DNA from: an uncultured Verrucomicrobia subdivision 3 bacterium
GTDB lineage: Bacteria > Verrucomicrobiota > Verrucomicrobiia > Limisphaerales > UBA8199
Length of the DNA stretch: 38,033 nt
Assembly (NCBI GenBank): GCA_903913865.1
Contig: CAIWMU010000002.1
Coordinates: forward strand, 1-38,033
Direction of reading: 5' to 3'
Part shown: piece by piece, positions 6,599 to 18,251 of the stretch
How the letters are laid out: every line of letters begins with the position of its first letter
Numbering within the stretch: position 1 is the first letter of the stretch
Translations under genes and position numbers: made by a program
The notes under the pieces: model-generated
The model's input: only the letters and a program-made list of their open reading frames with translations
Database searches by the model: none
What the model was told of the DNA's origin: nothing

Positions 6599-7924
6599 TC
6601 AGCGGTTCTGAGACTGCTGATCTGTCTGTGAAACCTTGAGCCTCCGCAGATACAATGCGATGCCGGCAAGCAGAAGGGCCATGACGATGCTCATCGAGAG
6701 TGCAAGGCGGTTCGTGTTCCGCATCCCTGCCTCGGGATGCCCGCCGACGAGCCACCCGATCACCTGCTCCTGAACCACCGCCCCAATGCTTCCCAGGCCG
6801 TTCACCAGTCCCGCCACCGCCACCGCATTCTTCTCCCCCGCGACCTGGACGGAGGCGGCGCCGCAGAGCAGGGTGTCCGGCCCATAGAGCATGAAACCGA
6901 CCAACCCGAAGCAGATGGCGAGGGCGCCCGGGCTGCCGCCGAACATCAGGACGGCACAGTAGCCACCCACCACCCCGAGGGACATCCAGGCGCAGAGGGC
7001 GGCCCAGTTGCCCTTGAACCACCGGTCGAGCGCCCAACCGGCCAGCACCACGCCACCAAGGCCCGCAAAGTCGAACACCTGCGAGTAATAGCTGGCGTGG
7101 GAGACATCCAGCCCCTGAAGATTCAGGAAGGTGGGCAGCCAGGAATCCAGCGCGTAGCGGAGGAATTTCATGCAGAAATAGCTCGCGCCCATGGCCAGAA
7201 TAACCGGGTTGGATGCCAGTTTTGCGTATTGTGCCAGCGTCACGCGATCCCCCTGCGGTGCATCCACCGTCTGTTTTCCTGCCGGGGTTTCCCGGATGAT
7301 TGGTTCCAGGCCCACATCCTGCGGGCGGTTCTTCTGCCAGAAATAGATCAACCACCAGATGCCGAAGCTGAGCAACGTGCAGCCCCAGAAGGACCATCTC
7401 CACCCCCAGGTGCCGAGGATGAAGCCCCCGACCGATTTCACGATCATGTTGCCAAAGAGGTAGTTTGTGGACCAGAACCCCATGAGCGTGCCGCGTTCCG
7501 CAGGGCGCACCCATTGGGCGATGGCCCCGACGCTCCCCGGCCAGCCGCTCGCCTGCACCAACCCGTTGAAAAACATGAAACCCAGGAAGGTGGCGAACGA
7601 ATTCGCAAAGCCGAACACCACATTGCACCCGAGTGAAATCCCCAATCCGCCGAGAAGGAGCACCCGTGGTCCCCAGCGCCTCCCGATGAAGCTGTTGATG
7701 AACATCCCCAGCATGTAGGCGACCAGATAGGCCGTCCAGATGTGCGCGGTATCCCCAAGCTCCCAGTTCAGGTCCCTGGCGATCGTGGTCTTGCAGATCG
7801 TGAAGGTCTTCCGTGTGAGGTAGTAGCCGCCGTAGGCAAGGTAGCTGGAGGTCAGGATGCGCCAGCGCCAGCTCACCTGGCCGGGCGTCAGGGGGACAAG
7901 AGGTTGTGCCGGGGAATCAGCCAC
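6599..7924 (-). CDS. MFS transporter of the organophosphate:phosphate antiporter (GlpT/UhpT-like) type
   Basis: This 441-residue protein has about 12 hydrophobic segments and the length of a typical major-facilitator transporter. Two arginines match the phosphate-binding pair of GlpT: Arg38 in the first helix (YYLTRKTF, like the YYLVRKNF of GlpT) and Arg256 in the seventh (FLRYALDSWLPTFL). The fourth-helix segment GLVQASGWPGSVGAIAQW and the following ERGTLMGFWS also match this family. It therefore probably exchanges a phosphorylated metabolite such as glycerol-3-phosphate or a hexose phosphate for phosphate across the inner membrane. The specific substrate cannot be read from the sequence. 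It stands alone, with no regulator or phosphodiesterase nearby. The ATG at 7924 gives a sensible short hydrophilic N-terminus. Confidence 0.88.
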   Translation of the reverse strand: MADSPAQPLVPLTPGQVSWRWRILTSSYLAYGGYYLTRKTFTICKTTIARDLNWELGDTAHIWTAYLVAYMLGMFINSFIGRRWGPRVLLLGGLGISLGCNVVFGFANSFATFLGFMFFNGLVQASGWPGSVGAIAQWVRPAERGTLMGFWSTNYLFGNMIVKSVGGFILGTWGWRWSFWGCTLLSFGIWWLIYFWQKNRPQDVGLEPIIRETPAGKQTVDAPQGDRVTLAQYAKLASNPVILAMGASYFCMKFLRYALDSWLPTFLNLQGLDVSHASYYSQVFDFAGLGGVVLAGWALDRWFKGNWAALCAWMSLGVVGGYCAVLMFGGSPGALAICFGLVGFMLYGPDTLLCGAASVQVAGEKNAVAVAGLVNGLGSIGAVVQEQVIGWLVGGHPEAGMRNTNRLALSMSIVMALLLAGIALYLRRLKVSQTDQQSQNR

Positions 7925-10484: not shown

Positions 10485-11002
10485 GAAAAAATTGTATTCG
10501 CCGGTGCCTTGCACTCACTTGCCCTGAGAGGTTTCTGGTTTACCTCTGCAGAAGACGAAGCATCGTGTTTTGCCTGTGGCGGCGAGTCGGAAATCATAGC
10601 AGCAAATCGGATGGCGTCAATGAGCGGTTTGGGGCCATGAGACCCGGAGGTGCGGAAAAAGTCTGGTGAGATTGATTTGTGAAGAGAGCCACTGGAATCT
10701 GACCGGATCTGCGGATTCTCTCCCTGGGGAGGGCATGGCAGGACCCTTACAAAAGGGGTGGGGATTTATAGGTGCCACTATTGGAGGATGTTGTATAATC
10801 TTTGACAGTTGCGAACAGATGGCTGAGGATGGTCATGTTCGTAGAAAGAGGAATGCGTGGCCGCACGGATTGGAAGATGAACTTAATTTCATGCTGTCTG
10901 ATGGTGCTGGTTGTCCGGGCTTTTCGAGGCCGGGGAACCGGAGTGCCGTCTGCCGTGAACCGCAAGGACGAAGCAAGCTAACCCAAACACAAAGGAAACC
11001 CC
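10485..11002. other. Gap holding intergenic repeat copy B and the probable promoter of the PspA-SBP-ABC-AAA block
   Basis: This 518-base region separates the divergent ABC-F gene from the six-gene block. It contains repeat copy B. A TATAAT hexamer lies at 10794-10799, but I see no convincing -35 element 17 bases upstream, and no sigma-54 (GG-N10-GC) site of the kind that drives pspA in enterobacteria. An A/G-rich AAAGGAAA just before the ATG at 11003 serves as ribosome site. Confidence 0.4.
10668..10740. repeat. Intergenic repeat, copy B (uninterrupted)
   Basis: This copy matches both halves of the repeat at 8389-8535 without the 75-base insert: GACCGGA is followed directly by TCTGCGGATT. 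The two copies are direct repeats that bracket the small membrane protein and the ABC-F gene. Confidence 0.65.
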
Positions 11003-11761
11003 ATGTTCAGAGCAATTAAACGTGTATTCATCTGGCTCGGTCTCATGGCCGAGAAGGCGACGGAAACGGATGCCATCAATCAGGCTGTGGTGGAGCGCGG
11101 GATCCGGGATTCCAAGGTAAAGGCGGACAAGGCCCACTATGCGAACGGCCAGCTGGCCGGGCAGATTGCCCTGCTCAAGGATCAGATCAAGAAGCAGGAC
11201 CGGCAACGCCAGGAATTGCAGAGCCTTCTGCAGGTGGCGATTGCTGCCAACGACGAGGCCAATGGTGCCCATTATGCCGAGGAACTGGCATCGCTGGAAC
11301 AGGACCTGCAGGATAATCAGGCGCAGGCCCAGAGTCTGGAGGATCTTTACAAGCAGAACACATCCATCATTGCCGAGAGTCTGAGGGAGATTCAGCGGTT
11401 CCAGAGGGAGTTCGAGGCGGTCAAAGCCAAGGTGGCCATAGGCCGCTCGCTGGAGGGGTTGGCCGGGATGATGAAAAGCTCCATCACTGAGCTTCAGGGA
11501 ATGATGGGCGGTGAGATGGGCCAATCGATGCAGCAACTCAGGCAGTCCGCCGCTGCGGGAGAAGGCCAGATGCGGGCAACCCTTGACCTGGCAAAGGAAA
11601 TGGGGTCGGGCATCTCCCGGCAGCAGGAAGCGCGCAAGGCACGGGGTTCAGCCCTCTTCCAGGAATACAAGAAGAAGATGGGAATGGTGCAGCCTGATGC
11701 GGTTGGAACGGTTCCCCCGGCGGCGGCCCCGGCCGAGCGCCAGAAGATCGCGGAAAAGTAA
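11003..11761 (+). CDS. PspA/IM30-family protein (ESCRT-III superfamily membrane-remodelling protein)
   Basis: This 252-residue protein is almost wholly alpha-helical and rich in Gln, Glu, Lys and Ala. It starts with an amphipathic helix (MFRAIKRVFIWLGLMAEKA) like the membrane-binding helix of PspA/Vipp1. It then forms a long coiled coil (about 30-160), with KADKAHYANGQLAGQIALLK and LASLEQDLQDNQAQAQSLE in the hairpin region, and ends in shorter helices and a Pro/Ala-rich tail. PspA-type proteins polymerise on the inner membrane and maintain or repair it under stress. The match is by pattern and length (usual size 220-260), not by an exact motif. It opens the six-gene block; the next gene starts 35 bases after its stop. 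No PspF-, PspB- or PspC-like gene is near, so control is probably unlike the enterobacterial system. Confidence 0.8.
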   Translation: MFRAIKRVFIWLGLMAEKATETDAINQAVVERGIRDSKVKADKAHYANGQLAGQIALLKDQIKKQDRQRQELQSLLQVAIAANDEANGAHYAEELASLEQDLQDNQAQAQSLEDLYKQNTSIIAESLREIQRFQREFEAVKAKVAIGRSLEGLAGMMKSSITELQGMMGGEMGQSMQQLRQSAAAGEGQMRATLDLAKEMGSGISRQQEARKARGSALFQEYKKKMGMVQPDAVGTVPPAAAPAERQKIAEK

Positions 11762-11796: not shown

Positions 11797-13533
11797 ATGA
11801 CAGCACGAGGAAAAGCGGTATTGACCCTCTTGATTTTGGGGGTGGTTGGGTTTGGCATGTTCCGCTGGTGGGACAAGATAGCGCCCCAGACGAAGCTGCA
11901 GACACCGGTGGTGGATGTGGGAGAGATCAAAAAGGCGGTGCAGGCGGCGAAGGTGGTGCCGGATGAGATCCCGCTGTTGATCGGGACCAATGCAGCCACC
12001 CTGGTGGACCGATCCGGCATCCCGGCTGTAACGGGTGTGAGCGACTATTCGAAGAAGGTGAAGAACGGGAAACCCGTCGTGGAGTTCCCCATCAACATCT
12101 GGCCCGGATGGGCCCCGATCATCGTCGCCAACGGTGGCATGGAGGGGAACGATGAGAGCGTGTTTGCCAAGAAATACGGCTTTTATGTGAACCTGAGCAT
12201 TGTGGATGATCCGGTCAAAGCCCGGGATTTGTTCGCGAGCGGCCAAAGCCATGTGCTGTGGGGAACGCTGGACATGATGGCGCTGTTCGCCCCCGAGCTG
12301 GTGAAGGACAGCCGGACAGTGCCCGTGGTGGCGCAGCAGATTGACTGGTCCTCGGGCGGGGACGGCATTGTGGCGCGCGGCGAGATCCGTAACATCAACG
12401 ATTTCCGGATGCAGGGCGGCAAACGGAAGAAGGTGGTGCTGGCCCAGAACTCGCCGAGCCATTACCTGATCATGTCCCTGCTTGTGGATGCGGGCATTGA
12501 TCCGGGAGACCTCGATTTCCGTTGGGCAGCCGATGCCCCGTCTGCAGCGAAGATCTTCGTGCAGGACACCAGTTTCGATGCCTTTGTCGGATGGTCCCCG
12601 GATATTTACGTTGTGACAGAGAAGCTCAAGGGCACCCGTCTGGTGGTGACCACCAGCACGGCAAATCATCTTGTGGCCGACGTGTGGGCTGTGCGCAACG
12701 ATTATTACCGGGATCATCCGGAAGTGGTTGCGGGACTTGTGAAGGGGATTTTTGAAGGAATGGACATGGTGCGCAAGGACCCCAAGAATGCGGCGCGCGC
12801 CCTGGCGATGGCGTTCAAATTGCCCGAGGAGGATTGTCTGAAGATGATCGGGGCGGATGGCGGAGTGGCGGAGGGGGATGCCCACCTGACGAACTACCGG
12901 GAGAACGCCAAGTTCTTCCTGGACCCGTTCAATCCTGCAAACTTTGATGTGGTCTGGAACAGCGCATCGACGATCTACAAATCGCTTGGGACGATTTCCA
13001 CGGCGGTTCCCGCTTCGAAGGTGAAGGCAGCGTCAGTGCTTGCCGGCCTGTCCGAGGCCTACAAGGATGTTCGGGATCTTTCGCAGCCGACCTTCAGGCC
13101 GGATGCGATGATGAAGTTGAGCGCGGAGGCGGGATCCGGCCAGGTGCTGACCAAGGCCGTGATTATTGGATTTGAACCGAACAAGTCGGTGTTGAACAAG
13201 GAATACGACAACACAATCCCCGCGACCCTTGAAGAGATTGGCAAGCTGGCAGGCAAGTTCGGAAACGCCTACATCGTGATTGAAGGCAATACGGACGCGA
13301 GCAGAAAGGGTATTGTGCCGACCGACCTCGTCCGGCAGCTCTCCTATGACCGGGCCGATTCCGTGCGCCGGGCCATCATGGAAAAGAACCAGTTCGATCC
13401 CAACAAGTTCAAGGTTGTGGGCAATGGCTGGGATAATCCGCTGGCCGGCTGCACCGATCCCGGAAACTCCGATCATAACAAAAAGAACCGGCGGGTGGAG
13501 GTGAAGGTGTTCCCGCTGGAATCGGGCAACTGA
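11797..13533 (+). CDS. Membrane-anchored NitT/TauT-type substrate-binding protein fused to an OmpA peptidoglycan-binding domain
   Basis: A transmembrane segment lies at residues 6-23, followed by a short linker and a periplasmic binding-protein domain of the NMT1/SsuA type (about 75-410). That domain shows FPINIWPGWAPIIVANGG, FAKKYGFYVNLSIVDDP and FASGQSHVLWGTLDMMALF, which match receptors of nitrate/sulfonate/thiamine-precursor ABC systems. The C-terminal 130 residues form an OmpA-type domain (VIIGFEPNKSVLN, VIEGNTDASRKG, LSYDRADSVRRAI, KNRRVEVKV), with the Asp and Arg that bind the diaminopimelate of peptidoglycan. The protein would thus be fixed to the inner membrane at one end and the cell wall at the other, unlike ordinary free or lipid-anchored receptors. 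GAAGGA before the ATG is a good ribosome site. The ligand is unknown. Permease and ATPase genes follow. Confidence 0.9.
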   Translation: MTARGKAVLTLLILGVVGFGMFRWWDKIAPQTKLQTPVVDVGEIKKAVQAAKVVPDEIPLLIGTNAATLVDRSGIPAVTGVSDYSKKVKNGKPVVEFPINIWPGWAPIIVANGGMEGNDESVFAKKYGFYVNLSIVDDPVKARDLFASGQSHVLWGTLDMMALFAPELVKDSRTVPVVAQQIDWSSGGDGIVARGEIRNINDFRMQGGKRKKVVLAQNSPSHYLIMSLLVDAGIDPGDLDFRWAADAPSAAKIFVQDTSFDAFVGWSPDIYVVTEKLKGTRLVVTTSTANHLVADVWAVRNDYYRDHPEVVAGLVKGIFEGMDMVRKDPKNAARALAMAFKLPEEDCLKMIGADGGVAEGDAHLTNYRENAKFFLDPFNPANFDVVWNSASTIYKSLGTISTAVPASKVKAASVLAGLSEAYKDVRDLSQPTFRPDAMMKLSAEAGSGQVLTKAVIIGFEPNKSVLNKEYDNTIPATLEEIGKLAGKFGNAYIVIEGNTDASRKGIVPTDLVRQLSYDRADSVRRAIMEKNQFDPNKFKVVGNGWDNPLAGCTDPGNSDHNKKNRRVEVKVFPLESGN

Positions 13534-13642: not shown

Positions 13643-14503
13643 ATGCTTGGCTTTTTGATTTTTTCGCTCGCCTTCGTGGCGATCCTGACCGTTGTGGTGC
13701 GGGTGGGTGGGCTGCGGGTGCGGGGGGAACTGACCAACTCCGGCACACTTGGGCTGACCCTTCTTTTTGTGGGCTTGGTTGTGTCGGTTTGGTGGGCTGT
13801 GACGCGTGGGGCTCCGGAGCAGCGCCTAGTTCAATCGCTGATTCTGCCCAGCCCGGGAGAGGTTTTGGGGGCGTTCAAGCCGTTGCACTTCGAGCAGGGT
13901 CTGGTGCGCAGTGCCCTCACATCGTGGCTGCGTGTCAGCGCCGGATTTCTGCTTGCTGCAATCGTGGCTGTGCCGCTGGGTGTTTACATGGCCACGTTCC
14001 CCTCCATAGCGGCCTTTTTCCGTCCCCTATCGCTGGCCGGGGCCTATGTGCCGATCGTCGTATTCATACCGCTGAGCATGACCTGGTTCGGGACTGGTGA
14101 GACCCAGAAGGTCGGGTTTCTGTTCATTGGCTGTTTCGTGGCCCTGCTACCGCTGGTGATCAAGGATGTGGCGGATGTTCCCGCCGCCTTTCTGGATGTG
14201 GCTGTCACGAAGGGAGCATCCCAGTGGCAACTGGTGCGCCATGTGCTGTTTCCGGTGGCGCAGGACAGCATCTGGGATCATTTGCGGGGAGTGTACGGGG
14301 TGGGCTGGGGATGGATCATCATGGCAGAGGTTTTTGTGCGGCCTGAATATGGGCTGGGGGCTTTGATCGGGGTGTCCGAGAGGCGCAGCCACACAGAGGC
14401 GATCTTTGCGGTCATCATTGTGATTGTGCTTATCGCCATCGCATGCGACCAGCTTTGGCGGATCGGCGGCAACCTTTTGTTTCCCTATCGGAAGGAGAAG
14501 TGA
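13643..14503 (+). CDS. ABC transporter permease, NitT/TauT (BPD) type
   Basis: This 286-residue integral membrane protein has two N-terminal hydrophobic segments (about 1-20 and 33-53), then the usual binding-protein-dependent permease core starting near the LILPSPGEVLGAF segment seen in SsuC/TauC-like permeases. The EAA-type coupling motif is AAFLDVAVTKGASQWQLVRHV-like, near residues 181-200, with the conserved Gly. The last helix ends with a basic FPYRKEK tail. The extra N-terminal helix is slightly unusual for the family. Its partner ATPase starts two bases after its stop, which indicates tight co-translation. Together with the upstream receptor fusion it forms a complete importer-like system whose substrate is not evident. 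Confidence 0.9.
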   Translation: MLGFLIFSLAFVAILTVVVRVGGLRVRGELTNSGTLGLTLLFVGLVVSVWWAVTRGAPEQRLVQSLILPSPGEVLGAFKPLHFEQGLVRSALTSWLRVSAGFLLAAIVAVPLGVYMATFPSIAAFFRPLSLAGAYVPIVVFIPLSMTWFGTGETQKVGFLFIGCFVALLPLVIKDVADVPAAFLDVAVTKGASQWQLVRHVLFPVAQDSIWDHLRGVYGVGWGWIIMAEVFVRPEYGLGALIGVSERRSHTEAIFAVIIVIVLIAIACDQLWRIGGNLLFPYRKEK

Positions 14504-14505
14504 AC

Positions 14506-15390
14506 ATGGCTCAACCTCAGACAAGTGAGAAGGGAACGGCGTCCCCTGCGAAACCGGCTGGAGCAGCGGGGGCGGGCGCACCGCTGCCGGATGTGGTGGC
14601 CTTCAAGAATGTCACCAAGAGTTTTGGGGCGGGGCAGTCCGCCCGCGTTGCGATCCAGGATGTGTCGTTTGTCGTCGAGGACAAGCCCGGGGTGGGGGAG
14701 CTGGTGACGATTGTGGGTCCATCGGGTTGCGGGAAATCAACGCTCCTGAGGATCATCGCTGGACTCAAGCCTCACTTTCCGGCGACCTCCGGCGAGGTTC
14801 GCGTTTTTGGGAAACCGGTCATGGAGGCGGGGCCGGACCGGGGGTTGGTGGATCAAAAATACTCACTTCTGCCCCATCTCAATGTGATTGAGAACATCGC
14901 CTTTGGATTGCGTCTGGCGGGCAAGGGTCGATCCGAACGCATCGCACGGGCCCGGGAATGGATAACGAAAGTGGGTTTGGAAGGGTCCGAGGAGAAGTAT
15001 CCCGGCGAGTTGAGCGGGGGGATGCAGCAGCGGGTGTCGATCGCGGCAACGCTCATTTTGCAGCCGCGAATTCTTCTGATGGATGAGCCATTCGGCGCGT
15101 TGGATCCGGGAATCCGGCTGCGCATGCAGGAGTTGCTGATCCGGCTGTGGACGGAACAGCAGGGGACTGTTTTTCTTGTCACCCACTCGGTTGAAGAGGC
15201 TGTGTATCTCGGGGACCGTGTCTTTGTGATGGCGGCCAAGCCGGGGCGCCTGGTGGAAGTCCTGACGGTGCCCAGACCGGAGGAAACTCCCGAGGCGAGC
15301 CGGAGGAAGCCATGGTTCATTGATTTTTGTCAGGCACTGCTGAGGCGGTTGGAGGATTCACCCCAGTCGCCTGCGGGGGCCAAAGTGTGA
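14506..15390 (+). CDS. ABC transporter ATPase, NitT/TauT type
   Basis: This 294-residue ATPase has Walker A GPSGCGKST, a Q-loop VDQKYSLLPHL, signature LSGGMQQRVSIA, Walker B ILLMDEPFGALD and the switch histidine in VTHSVEEA. The order and wording match ATPases of nitrate, taurine and sulfonate importers (SsuB/TauB/NrtD-like). I chose the ATG at 14506, preceded by GGAAGGAGAAG and only two bases after the permease stop. A longer frame upstream would run through the permease gene. The N-terminal 25 residues are low in complexity (Ala/Gly/Pro-rich). It powers the adjacent permease and receptor. A non-transport role, as in some cell-envelope ABC systems, is also possible given the neighbours. Confidence 0.93.
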   Translation: MAQPQTSEKGTASPAKPAGAAGAGAPLPDVVAFKNVTKSFGAGQSARVAIQDVSFVVEDKPGVGELVTIVGPSGCGKSTLLRIIAGLKPHFPATSGEVRVFGKPVMEAGPDRGLVDQKYSLLPHLNVIENIAFGLRLAGKGRSERIARAREWITKVGLEGSEEKYPGELSGGMQQRVSIAATLILQPRILLMDEPFGALDPGIRLRMQELLIRLWTEQQGTVFLVTHSVEEAVYLGDRVFVMAAKPGRLVEVLTVPRPEETPEASRRKPWFIDFCQALLRRLEDSPQSPAGAKV

Positions 15391-15474: not shown

Positions 15475-16443
15475 ATGGAAGAGCCACTGCCCAGTTATCA
15501 TCAGGAGTTCGCGCAGAGCCCGCATCACGTGGTGTTCGGGTTGCTGACGCTTGGTTTGGGCTTTATCAGCGCCCAGATATTGCCCCTTATTATCGGTGTC
15601 ACTGCCTATGCTCTGGGGTGGATTTACCTTCCAGACCTTGCCTTTTTCCGGAACTGGGTGGACCGCCGCCGTGAACACGCCCTGCGTGAGGTGGAACTTC
15701 AAAAGGTTGCCGGGTTCATCCAGAAGCGGGATGCGCTGGTTGATTCCCTCTCGCCGACGCGCCGGGAGCGATACCAGCGGCTGGCATCCGTCTGCGGGGA
15801 TATCGAGCGGGCCGGGGCGGACAGTCCATTGGCGGCGGCGACGGCGGCGGATCCCAGGTTGAAGAAGCTGGATGAGTTGATGTGGACCTTCCTGCGGTTG
15901 TTGGGGATCGAGGAATCCCTGGAGCGCTTTCTGGAAACAGAGCGGAGCGAGGACGTGCCGACGATGTTGAAGGAGGCGGAAGCGGAATGCCAGCGGTTGA
16001 ACGGGGAGCTTGAAGCGCTGAAGAAGGGCGGGGATGCCGGGTCGGTGGAAACGCGCCAGCGCTACCTCGGGTCCCGGCTTGAGCGGCTGGATGTGCTGAG
16101 GAAGCGGCAGCGGCGCATCACTCAGGGGCAGGAAAATCTGGCACTTGTGATTTCCGAGCAGGACCGGCTGGATCAACAGATCAAGCTCATTCGTGCGGAC
16201 GCCGTGGCAACCAAGAATGCCGAATCCCTGACGGCGAGGATCGACGCGACGGTGGAGCATTTGGACCAGACCAACAAGTGGCTTTCCGAGATGGATGAGT
16301 TCAAGGATCTGGTGGGGGATTTGCCCTCCACCGAGTTGCGGGTGGGTTATCGCAGCGGGGCGACCGGGGCACCCCCGGTTCTCGGCCCGGCCCAGGGGGT
16401 TCGTCCCGGGGCCAAAAGTCCTCCAGTAAGGTTCTCAACATGA
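15475..16443 (+). CDS. Membrane-anchored coiled-coil protein, uncharacterised
   Basis: I do not recognise this 322-residue protein as a named family. A hydrophobic hairpin or two short membrane helices (about 18-34 and 36-53) follows a short acidic N-terminus. The rest is highly charged and helical: a basic VDRRREH stretch, then long Glu/Arg/Leu-rich segments (about 60-280) with heptad character, such as EAECQRLNGELEALKK and SRLERLDVLRKRQRRI. The last 35 residues are Gly/Pro-rich and probably disordered. Its stop overlaps the start of the AAA+ gene (ATGA), so the two proteins are probably made together and may bind each other. It could be a membrane adaptor between the ATPase and the PspA-like protein, which is inference. 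No Shine-Dalgarno sequence precedes its ATG. Confidence 0.75.
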   Translation: MEEPLPSYHQEFAQSPHHVVFGLLTLGLGFISAQILPLIIGVTAYALGWIYLPDLAFFRNWVDRRREHALREVELQKVAGFIQKRDALVDSLSPTRRERYQRLASVCGDIERAGADSPLAAATAADPRLKKLDELMWTFLRLLGIEESLERFLETERSEDVPTMLKEAEAECQRLNGELEALKKGGDAGSVETRQRYLGSRLERLDVLRKRQRRITQGQENLALVISEQDRLDQQIKLIRADAVATKNAESLTARIDATVEHLDQTNKWLSEMDEFKDLVGDLPSTELRVGYRSGATGAPPVLGPAQGVRPGAKSPPVRFST

Positions 16444-18251
16444 GCACTGAAAACGCAAAAACGACTCCGGTCGAAACCGTCGAAAGTGGTGGGTTGCTGC
16501 CCCTCTCCGGATGGGCGCTGGAGCTTGCCCGCCGTTGGAATGGGGCCACCTATTCGTTGTTTGTGCTCCATGGGAACATTTTTGATCTTTTCCCTGTGCA
16601 GGAGGAGAGCGGGCTGAGTTATGTGCCCCTCAAAACCTTTCTGGCGCGCCGGATGTTTCCAAGCCGGTCCTGCCTGCTTTTTTATGATATCAGCTCCGGT
16701 CTGAGTTTCGGGTCGGCGGACATGCAGCGCCGGTTCTTCGAGTGGCTGGAGATTTACGACCAGGTTGAAAACACCAGTTTCCGGGAAACCGGTCCGCCGA
16801 AGGAGTTCCTGAGATTGGCCCCCTTGCTGCGGCGGTTCTTTCTCCGCGTTGCCGAGGAACGCCAACGCTGGCAGGGGATCACACTGATCATTGATTTTCC
16901 TGAAAAGCTGGTTCCGGCAAGCGAGCAAAGCCAGGCAAGCTCGGAGGAACGGATGAATCTGGTGACCCTCCTGAAATGGGCCGCCGCTCCGGAGATGGCG
17001 AGTCTGGATATCGGGATCATTCTGGTCGCGGAATCGGCGGCTGAGTTGAATGCACGCCTTCTCCAGAATCCACACGTGGCCCAGGTGAGAATTGATCTTC
17101 CCTCGATTGAGGACCGGTTGCGGTTTTTGAACTCGGGATGGCTGCAGTCGCTTGCGGGAGGAAGGCCCTCCGCCGAGTGGAGTGATTTCACCACCGTTGA
17201 GCTTGCCACCCGTTCGGCAGGCTTGAACCTGCTGAGAATCCGGCACTTTCTTTCGGAGGCCATCCGCAACGGGGCGAAGGTGACGCAGGATCTGGTCAGT
17301 GCCAGCAAGAAGAAGTTGATTGAGGAGTATTGCCAGGGGCTGGTTCGATTCAAGGATCCCAAACCGGGAGTGACCCTCGACCGGGTGGCGACCCATGCGG
17401 CGGCCAAGAAGAAGCTGCGTGAACTGGCATGGCTCATCCGCAACGGAAAAACCGAGGTGCTCGAGCGGGGTGTTCTGGTGCCGGGCAGGGTGGGGGTGGG
17501 CAAGTCCTACCTGATTGATTGCTTTGCAAGTGAATGCGGGTTGCCGGTGATGGAGATCGGTGAGTTCCGGTCCAAATGGGTTGGGGATACGGAGCGTCAG
17601 CAGATGCTGGTGCTGATGACCGTGCGAGCCCTGGGGCCGGTCATTGTTGTGGTGGATGAGGCGGATGCCGTGTTTGGGAGCCGGGATGGGGATGGGGGGG
17701 ATAGCGGGATATCCGGCCGGGTGTTTGCCGCATTCGCGGCGCACATCGGGGATTCCACGCTGCGCGGGCGGGAGTTGTGGGTGGCGATGACATCACGGCC
17801 CGACCTGCTGGCAATCGACATGAAGCGCCAGGGGCGGTTTGGGCTTTGTGTACCACTCTTTCCGGCGCAGGGACCGGAGGAGGTTCTGGAGTTGTTCCAG
17901 ACCATCGCAGGGGTGCGAAAGATCGTTCTTGGGCCGGACATGATCGAATACATCCGGGAGCGGCTCGGTTCGGAGCCTCTGACGGGCAGTGATGTGGAAT
18001 CGATCCTGATGCGGGCCAAGGAGCGGGCGGTGCTTGCCATCCGCGATCTGGATGTCCAGCGTGCCGATCTTGAGGAGGCGGTTGCCTCCTTTATTGATCC
18101 GCTGGATCCTAACGTCCTGGCGATGCAGGAACTGGCAGCCGTGCTTGCCTGTTCGGACAGGCGTTACCTACCCGAAAAATACCGGGAGGTTGACCGTTCC
18201 GTCCTGCTTGGGACGTTCGCCACGGTGAAGCAGCGTCAGTCCGGTCGATGA
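16440..18251 (+). CDS. Two-module AAA+ ATPase with a degenerate N-terminal module
   Basis: This 603-residue protein has one active AAA+ domain in its C-terminal half. Walker A is GRVGVGKSY with Lys355, the pore loop is KWVGDTE, Walker B is VIVVVDEADAVF with Asp406 and Glu407, a sensor-1-like segment is ELWVAMTSR, and an arginine-finger region is RQGRFG. The pore-loop and arginine-finger patterns place it in the classic clade with FtsH, Vps4 and Ycf46. The N-terminal 290 residues (SLFVLHGNIFDLF, LLFYDISSGL, ITLIIDFPEKLVP, GIILVAES) look like an AAA-type core that has lost its Walker A lysine, as in Ycf46-like proteins. There is no membrane segment. Its ATG overlaps the stop of the coiled-coil gene. 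As last gene of a PspA-containing block, it may disassemble or reshape PspA polymers; this is inference. Confidence 0.88.
   Translation: MSTENAKTTPVETVESGGLLPLSGWALELARRWNGATYSLFVLHGNIFDLFPVQEESGLSYVPLKTFLARRMFPSRSCLLFYDISSGLSFGSADMQRRFFEWLEIYDQVENTSFRETGPPKEFLRLAPLLRRFFLRVAEERQRWQGITLIIDFPEKLVPASEQSQASSEERMNLVTLLKWAAAPEMASLDIGIILVAESAAELNARLLQNPHVAQVRIDLPSIEDRLRFLNSGWLQSLAGGRPSAEWSDFTTVELATRSAGLNLLRIRHFLSEAIRNGAKVTQDLVSASKKKLIEEYCQGLVRFKDPKPGVTLDRVATHAAAKKKLRELAWLIRNGKTEVLERGVLVPGRVGVGKSYLIDCFASECGLPVMEIGEFRSKWVGDTERQQMLVLMTVRALGPVIVVVDEADAVFGSRDGDGGDSGISGRVFAAFAAHIGDSTLRGRELWVAMTSRPDLLAIDMKRQGRFGLCVPLFPAQGPEEVLELFQTIAGVRKIVLGPDMIEYIRERLGSEPLTGSDVESILMRAKERAVLAIRDLDVQRADLEEAVASFIDPLDPNVLAMQELAAVLACSDRRYLPEKYREVDRSVLLGTFATVKQRQSGR

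Follow-up and report, generated by a model that had tools for sequence, protein, structure and literature searches.

ABC receptors of the NMT1/SsuA class are normally free or lipid-anchored. A gene in the stretch of DNA analysed here (38,033 nucleotides, hereafter the window) raises the question of what such a receptor does when a membrane helix and a peptidoglycan-binding OmpA domain are built into the same chain. The gene (11797–13533, plus strand, as are all genes and protein features of the window given below) has an ATG start and no internal stop and encodes a protein of 578 amino acids, here called SBP-OmpA, whose only match in its own genome at an E-value of 0.001 is itself. A first-pass annotation had read the helix, the receptor domain and the OmpA domain from the sequence, and the open reading frame, Pfam and AlphaFold2 fold matches bear this out. 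The AlphaFold2 model, built from 43 aligned sequences (pLDDT 84.5, pTM 0.80), consists of a helix at residues 3–28, a two-lobed domain at approximately 90–418 and a compact domain at approximately 450–574, with low-confidence linkers around residues 30–70 and 430–450. From its hydropathy the helix (11803–11880) is probably an uncleaved signal anchor. No signal-peptide cleavage site was seen after it by eye, and many close relatives carry RWWDK or RWKDK directly behind it, again by eye.

In the model, the middle domain (12064–13050) clearly has the fold of the TauA/SsuA/NrtA group, superimposing on TauA (6ssy_B) with a Z-score of 28.1 over 285 residues at 3.3 Å and on SsuA (2x26_A) with a Z-score of 25.8. 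The nearest folds belong to binders of sulfonates, bicarbonate, nitrate and thiamin-related compounds. Profile searches of the kind the annotation had proposed place the OmpA domain above its cut-off and the NMT1 domain (PF09084) just under it (E = 0.001, 19.4 against 20.5 bits), the TauA-like fold being recognised by structure. The NCBIfam models TIGR03427 (1.9e-13, 50.3 against 333.9 bits) and TIGR01728 (5.6e-11, 42.2 against 163.5 bits) and the TauA model (28.6 bits against a cut-off of 490) also stay below their cut-offs. Since SBP-OmpA scores below the TauA, SsuA and urea cut-offs, it represents a distinct subfamily. Naming a ligand from the subfamily models was abandoned, as these score far below cut-off. 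Among the 43 aligned proteins PF09084 is found in 31 at an E-value of 0.001, while TIGR01728 (at 1e-5) and the OmpA model PF00691 (at 0.001) are found in all 43.

The C-terminal domain (13144–13518) matches PF00691 over residues 459–558 (E = 2e-10, 41.3 bits against a gathering threshold of 27.2), and its model superimposes on TagL (5m38_C; Z 17.8, 113 residues, 1.3 Å) and on the OmpA domain of Klebsiella pneumoniae (7rjj_A; Z 16.8). Passages of PMC5974059 describe Asp271 and Arg286 of Acinetobacter baumannii OmpA as diaminopimelate-binding. The presence of the equivalent Asp and Arg, which the annotation had also claimed, holds up: Asp500 (13294–13296) and Arg519 (13351–13353) align with the Asp of GHTD and the Arg of LSxxRA in A. 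baumannii OmpA (3td3) and are invariant in 43 aligned proteins, the window protein among them. The alternative of an OmpA domain without its binding residues is thus refuted for the subfamily of the window, and on these residues the domain likely binds peptidoglycan.

A single pattern scan of 84,980 species genomes returned 46 related loci at 41–90% identity, assigned by record title to Verrucomicrobiota, Planctomycetota, Acidobacteriota, Riflebacteria, Armatimonadota, Fibrobacter, Sumerlaeota and others. Both domains are covered in 44 of them, and in the other two (L020 and L046) the contig ends before or inside the OmpA part. An artefact, a chance fusion or an assembly join is ruled out by the single genomic match, the presence of both domains in relatives and the invariance of Asp500 and Arg519. 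In whole-genome samples at an E-value of 1e-20, the phylum gave matches in 12 of 194 genomes and the class in 35 of 384, counts that take in divergent subfamilies and one substrate-binding protein (SBP) without an OmpA domain (G220, locus L124).

SBP-OmpA is one gene of an operon whose members all lie on one strand, with gaps of at most about 110 bp, and whose gene set (PspA, SBP-OmpA, permease, ATPase, a coiled-coil protein and an AAA ATPase) recurs in related loci; open reading frames in the locus scans run from stop to stop, and their starts are predicted. The first gene (11003–11761, 252 aa) encodes a PspA-like protein of the ESCRT-III superfamily, assigned through a family match to PF04012 (PspA_IM30). 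The window protein itself stays below the cut-off of that model (E = 0.023, 14.8 against 33.9 bits), and 16 of 25 family members match it at an E-value of 0.01, the best at 3.4e-10. A PDB profile search with the PspA family returned nothing at an E-value of 0.1. At two further loci, L063 (13152–13994) and L065 (12910–13737), both of the third receptor subfamily described below, proteins beginning MFKA(I/L)GRF look PspA-like by eye, the one at L065 having no match to a Pfam PspA model. Downstream of the receptor, and adjoining it, are the permease and ATPase genes of a Tau/Ssu-type type I ABC importer with intact motifs. The permease (13643–14503; PF00528, 1.3e-11) is TauC/SaoP-like, matching NF040733 at 1.1e-24 and TauC at 1.2e-24, both under the equivalog cut-offs. 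The ATPase (14443–15390, where the next ATG at 14506 may be the true start; PF00005, 5.8e-28) is TauB/SaoA-like and matches the TauB model at 5.7e-62, under its cut-off. Its reading frame contains GPSGCGKST, LSGGMQQR and ILLMDEP, which we take to be the Walker A, signature and Walker B motifs of an ABC ATPase.

The fifth gene (15475–16443, 322 aa) encodes a hydrophobic helical hairpin, assigned to the membrane by inspection only, followed by a long coiled coil. Its AlphaFold2 model (pLDDT 87.1) has helices at residues 16–32 and 35–54 and then long helices. No Pfam family is matched by more than three of 30 members of this family at an E-value of 0.1, and its best PDB profile match is at 0.014. 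Fold comparison gives Z-scores of 8.5 with PspA (7abk) and 7.8 with Asgard ESCRT-IIIB (9ftl), ranked among unrelated coiled coils, with a best Z-score of 9.2. The last gene (16440–18251, 603 aa) encodes an AAA ATPase with an N-terminal half without an evident Walker A motif and an intact C-terminal AAA domain (PF00004, residues 345–468, 4e-17), whose Walker A and B residues are invariant in 21 sequences. The profile of the family matches VCP/CDC48, mostly over two stretches. At L059, a locus without importer genes, a 153-codon open reading frame (6688–7146) without a Pfam match lies between the coiled-coil and AAA genes. A promoter-like site at 10772–10799 was discarded as being within chance (three found against 2.1 expected).

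A VWA-domain gene with a D-x-S-G-S motif, whose product is probably secreted, adjoins the operon in many relatives, with matches in 31 of 57 loci searched, two of them duplicates. Pfam supports the VWA assignment for the three members tested, although one of these, from L059, scores under the cut-offs. In L002, the nearest relative of the window, this gene lies directly upstream of PspA. DNA alignment pairs L002 8341–8531 with window positions 10747–10937, and L002 from 9187 onward with the window from 10981, so that the window keeps the aligned flanks without the VWA stretch (site 10747–10980). No VWA relative was matched elsewhere in the genome of the window, in a search that matched seven of eight comparison genomes (all except G293). 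The VWA gene upstream of PspA has been lost in the lineage of the window. Separately, a further small conserved gene was seen upstream of PspA or SBP-OmpA, mostly in planctomycete loci (nine matches: L039 6219–6905, L022 8504–9145, L027 8295–8927, L024 5228–5917, L040 8967–9635 and four more). The only Pfam match of the L039 protein is to DUF3584, below cut-off.

The first-pass annotation had proposed that a receptor stretched between inner membrane and cell wall reports the distance or tension between them or collects a wall-derived ligand. The three-part chain, the binding residues and the conservation behind this proposal stand, but it took the protein alone, without the PspA, ABC permease and ATPase, coiled-coil and AAA genes of its operon, which points to a cognate importer and a membrane-remodelling module. 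Our preferred reading, held tentatively and at just under an even chance, is that SBP-OmpA is both the wall-anchored receptor of the adjacent TauBC-like importer and the periplasmic input of the PspA/AAA membrane-remodelling module. In this model, the N-terminal helix would hold the protein in the inner membrane, the OmpA domain would grip diaminopimelate in the peptidoglycan, and the middle domain would catch a small solute and deliver it to the permease. The coiled-coil membrane protein could then relay receptor occupancy, or stalled or active transport, to the AAA ATPase, and this enzyme may assemble or disassemble a PspA scaffold lining the inside of the membrane. Within this model it is likely that the type I receptor, the subfamily to which the window belongs, serves the adjacent importer; a signal path from the receptor to PspA, and its direction, are uncertain. 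The conserved gene set, the importer genes at every well-flanked type I locus, the constant type I pocket, the co-occurrence across genomes, the TauA-like fold, the invariant OmpA Asp and Arg and the independent recognition of this operon by Ravi et al. (2024) speak for this reading; against it are a single tree split, three of 29 well-flanked type I loci without the module nearby (L024, L040 and L130), five of 12 well-flanked type II loci likewise without it, genomes with the AAA protein but no SBP, a co-occurrence comparison that ignores shared ancestry and the weak score of the window PspA.

A related reading, possible but leaning towards the unlikely, makes the system a wall-anchored, ligand-gated counterpart of ESCRT-III/Vps4, in which SBP-OmpA would be the sensory hub, the probably secreted VWA protein a further wall-side partner, and the coiled-coil protein would pass the signal across the inner membrane to a Vps4-like AAA that acts on PspA, with the importer optional; here, one clade seems to lack the importer and another has a separate receptor for it. 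These clades emerge from a quick-method tree calculated for 113 SBP domains after removal of six pocket columns, with group labels taken partly from pocket residues. In it a single branch separates each of the four SBP-OmpA groups from everything else, and the free SBPs need two changes. The six positions were picked by invariance and topology rather than by measured distances, and the pocket is accordingly putative. SBP matches of fewer than 260 aligned columns were dropped from the tree and from the counts of well-flanked loci (at least 5.5 kb on both sides), and those of fewer than 200 from the residue table. This length filter took out fragments, the second copy at the type III locus L121 and two OmpA matches, at L021 and L040, that look MotB-like by eye. 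Identical SBP cores were merged (five pairs, for example L013/L067 and L015/L068), and the near-identical L033/L034 and L127/L128 were kept. The L101 ATPase, which is presumably LptB since its neighbour looks to us like a ribosome-hibernation factor, is counted at the looser limit in the residue table and excluded at the stricter limit of the well-flanked counts.

In the type I subfamily W102, W105, W155, D159, D189 and W266 are constant, and the 29 well-flanked loci carry the permease and ATPase in 29 cases, PspA in 26, the coiled-coil gene in 26, AAA in 23 and VWA in 14. Such constancy of the importer fits a plain transporter whose receptor is kept near the membrane by two anchors, with PspA, the coiled-coil protein and AAA protecting the membrane or the transporter and no signalling involved, and the three loci L024, L040 and L130 likewise keep receptor and importer with none of PspA, coiled-coil or AAA genes nearby. 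We nevertheless consider this explanation unlikely: at least one of those three genes is nearby in 26 of the 29 loci, L059, L060 and L104 keep all three with the receptor and have no family permease nearby, and AAA and the coiled-coil protein co-occur with the SBP across genomes. The SBP, AAA and coiled-coil searches of the class each covered 384 genomes, apparently one sample judging by count and handles. AAA (E-value 1e-50) was found in 26 of the 35 SBP-bearing genomes against 19 of the 349 others, and the coiled-coil protein (1e-10) in 21 of 35 against four of 349; counted by genus, the figures are 20 of 26 against 11 of 146 for AAA and 16 of 26 against four of 146 for the coiled-coil protein, in a comparison that treats genomes as independent and ignores shared ancestry. 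Of the nine SBP genomes in which AAA is missing at 1e-50, four (G338, G361, G476 and G493) contain a piece of an AAA-family gene at the locus. AAA and the coiled-coil gene lie apart from the SBP in G303 and G397, and AAA lies apart in G178, which means that more than shared position links these genes. AAA without an SBP match occurs in 19 genomes, 13 belonging to a single family (f3), and perhaps reflects another use of AAA.

The type II subfamily, a sister clade of type I, bears most directly on the idea of a ligand- or wall-state sensor and tether, with the receptor domain acting as a switch, the importer secondary or regulatory, and the clade without an importer representing the pure state. 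The first three pocket positions read YYA in 16 of its 17 rows and YYV in one, and no family permease lies near any of the 17 loci (12 of them well-flanked). The OmpA Asp and Arg are retained wherever both are covered (16 rows), the remaining row being cut off. Genes nearby among the 17 are the coiled-coil gene (nine), PspA (six), AAA (three) and VWA (two); five of the 12 well-flanked loci have none of PspA, coiled-coil or AAA genes nearby. The best permease matches in the 17 genomes range from 7e-45 to 1e-12, with none in one genome, compared with 4e-116 or better in nine of ten importer-bearing genomes. Among the type II genomes, G088 consists of one contig with an estimated completeness of 100%. 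The clade suggests that the SBP-OmpA architecture can serve without transport. However, the tenth importer-bearing genome (G303) has a divergent permease beside its SBP that was matched in two pieces at only 2e-43 and 6e-29, which does not surpass the strongest type II matches. Type II genomes could accordingly encode a divergent cognate permease away from the SBP locus. The association between pocket and transporter also rests on one tree split and therefore represents one event, not many.

Type III (15 loci) has a first SBP-OmpA, a VWA gene in all 15 loci and a second SBP-OmpA. In 14 of 14 rows kept for the second copy, the OmpA Asp position is R, S, G or Q. At the three type III loci inspected by eye (L063, L065 and L066) this copy starts with a membrane-like helix; the start of the first copy resembles a signal peptide in L063 and L065 and is ambiguous in L066. 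A free SBP lies directly beside the permease in nine of the 15 loci, so SBP-OmpA there need not feed the permease. For the window, which belongs to a subfamily with an importer and a constant pocket, a sensor-and-tether function is distinctly unlikely, and a pure sensor is at odds with the importer being kept in all 29 well-flanked type I loci, three of them without the module nearby.

PspA is an envelope-stress protein, and the association with it makes an envelope sensor plausible. The specific proposal of a gauge of distance or tension between membrane and wall, in which strain on the chain would alter closure of the receptor or the activity of AAA and PspA, could draw on the two anchors in one chain, the low-confidence linkers and the PspA neighbour; yet no mechanosensory feature was seen in the chain, and the long N-terminal linker would need to be pulled taut. 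Furthermore, at five type I loci (L025, L026, L031, L037 and L038; three from Riflebacteria and one from Erysipelotrichia) PspA lies between two SBP-OmpA copies, of which, by eye, one has a membrane-like helix and the other a signal-peptide-like start and no anchor. That some copies apparently have no membrane anchor speaks against distance or tension sensing as a general function, and we regard it as very improbable. A scavenging role, in which the domain would pick up small breakdown products of peptidoglycan or lipid for import, is barely credible: the receptor would be held at the wall beside an importer and its putative pocket is rich in invariant Trp and Asp, but the nearest folds bind the small compounds named above and nothing points to a wall fragment.

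Returning to the reading in which the receptor would serve both importer and PspA/AAA module, the operon joins a candidate input (the wall-anchored receptor), a candidate transmitter (the coiled-coil protein) and a candidate motor (AAA) in one unit found in many phyla, so that what triggers assembly or disassembly of a PspA scaffold becomes directly testable. Loci that lack importer genes nearby, and those that have a separate receptor, provide natural, built-in comparisons.

Operons of PspA/Snf7 and AAA genes with an ABC ATPase, a permease and a PBPB-OmpA protein have been briefly described, with OGG56892.1 as the example (Ravi et al. 2024, mSystems, PMC11237479). If its coiled-coil protein is equated, by inference only, with the "Snf7 homolog with a TM segment" of those authors, the window operon has all the gene types listed there and is therefore a member of this described, computationally predicted kind; the two share a PspA-like protein, an AAA protein with an inactive N-terminal copy, an ABC ATPase, a permease and a solute- and peptidoglycan-binding protein, and perhaps the TM-bearing Snf7-like protein. 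Their section on the operon runs to a few sentences and names no subfamilies, and neither "VWA" nor "von Willebrand" appears in the main text, so that, relative to that text, VWA as a frequent further partner is an addition of the present analysis. The clade without an importer nearby, the pocket split, the free-SBP variant and the paired copies also come from this analysis. In the open-licence literature we found no experimental work on a PspA/AAA/ABC/SBP-OmpA operon; PMC11237479 alone showed it, and the passages seen of PMC9239133 contain nothing on such an operon.

Three further known systems frame the comparison. With the aliphatic sulfonate and taurine importers TauABC and SsuABC the window shares the receptor fold and high-ranking permease and ATPase models, while the scores of its subfamily all remain below the curated cut-offs. 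To our knowledge, neither TauA nor SsuA carries an OmpA domain. With the OmpA C-like proteins (A. baumannii OmpA, TagL/TssL, MotB and YiaD) it shares the domain fold and the diaminopimelate-binding Asp and Arg; in those proteins, however, the domain belongs to a barrel, a motor stator or a secretion part, and here it forms the end of an ABC receptor that starts with a helix. Finally, as in ESCRT-III/Vps4, a putative PspA-superfamily scaffold lies beside a CDC48/Vps4-like AAA ATPase, but the AAA protein of the window has a degenerate first half and the pair is tied to an importer and a wall receptor.
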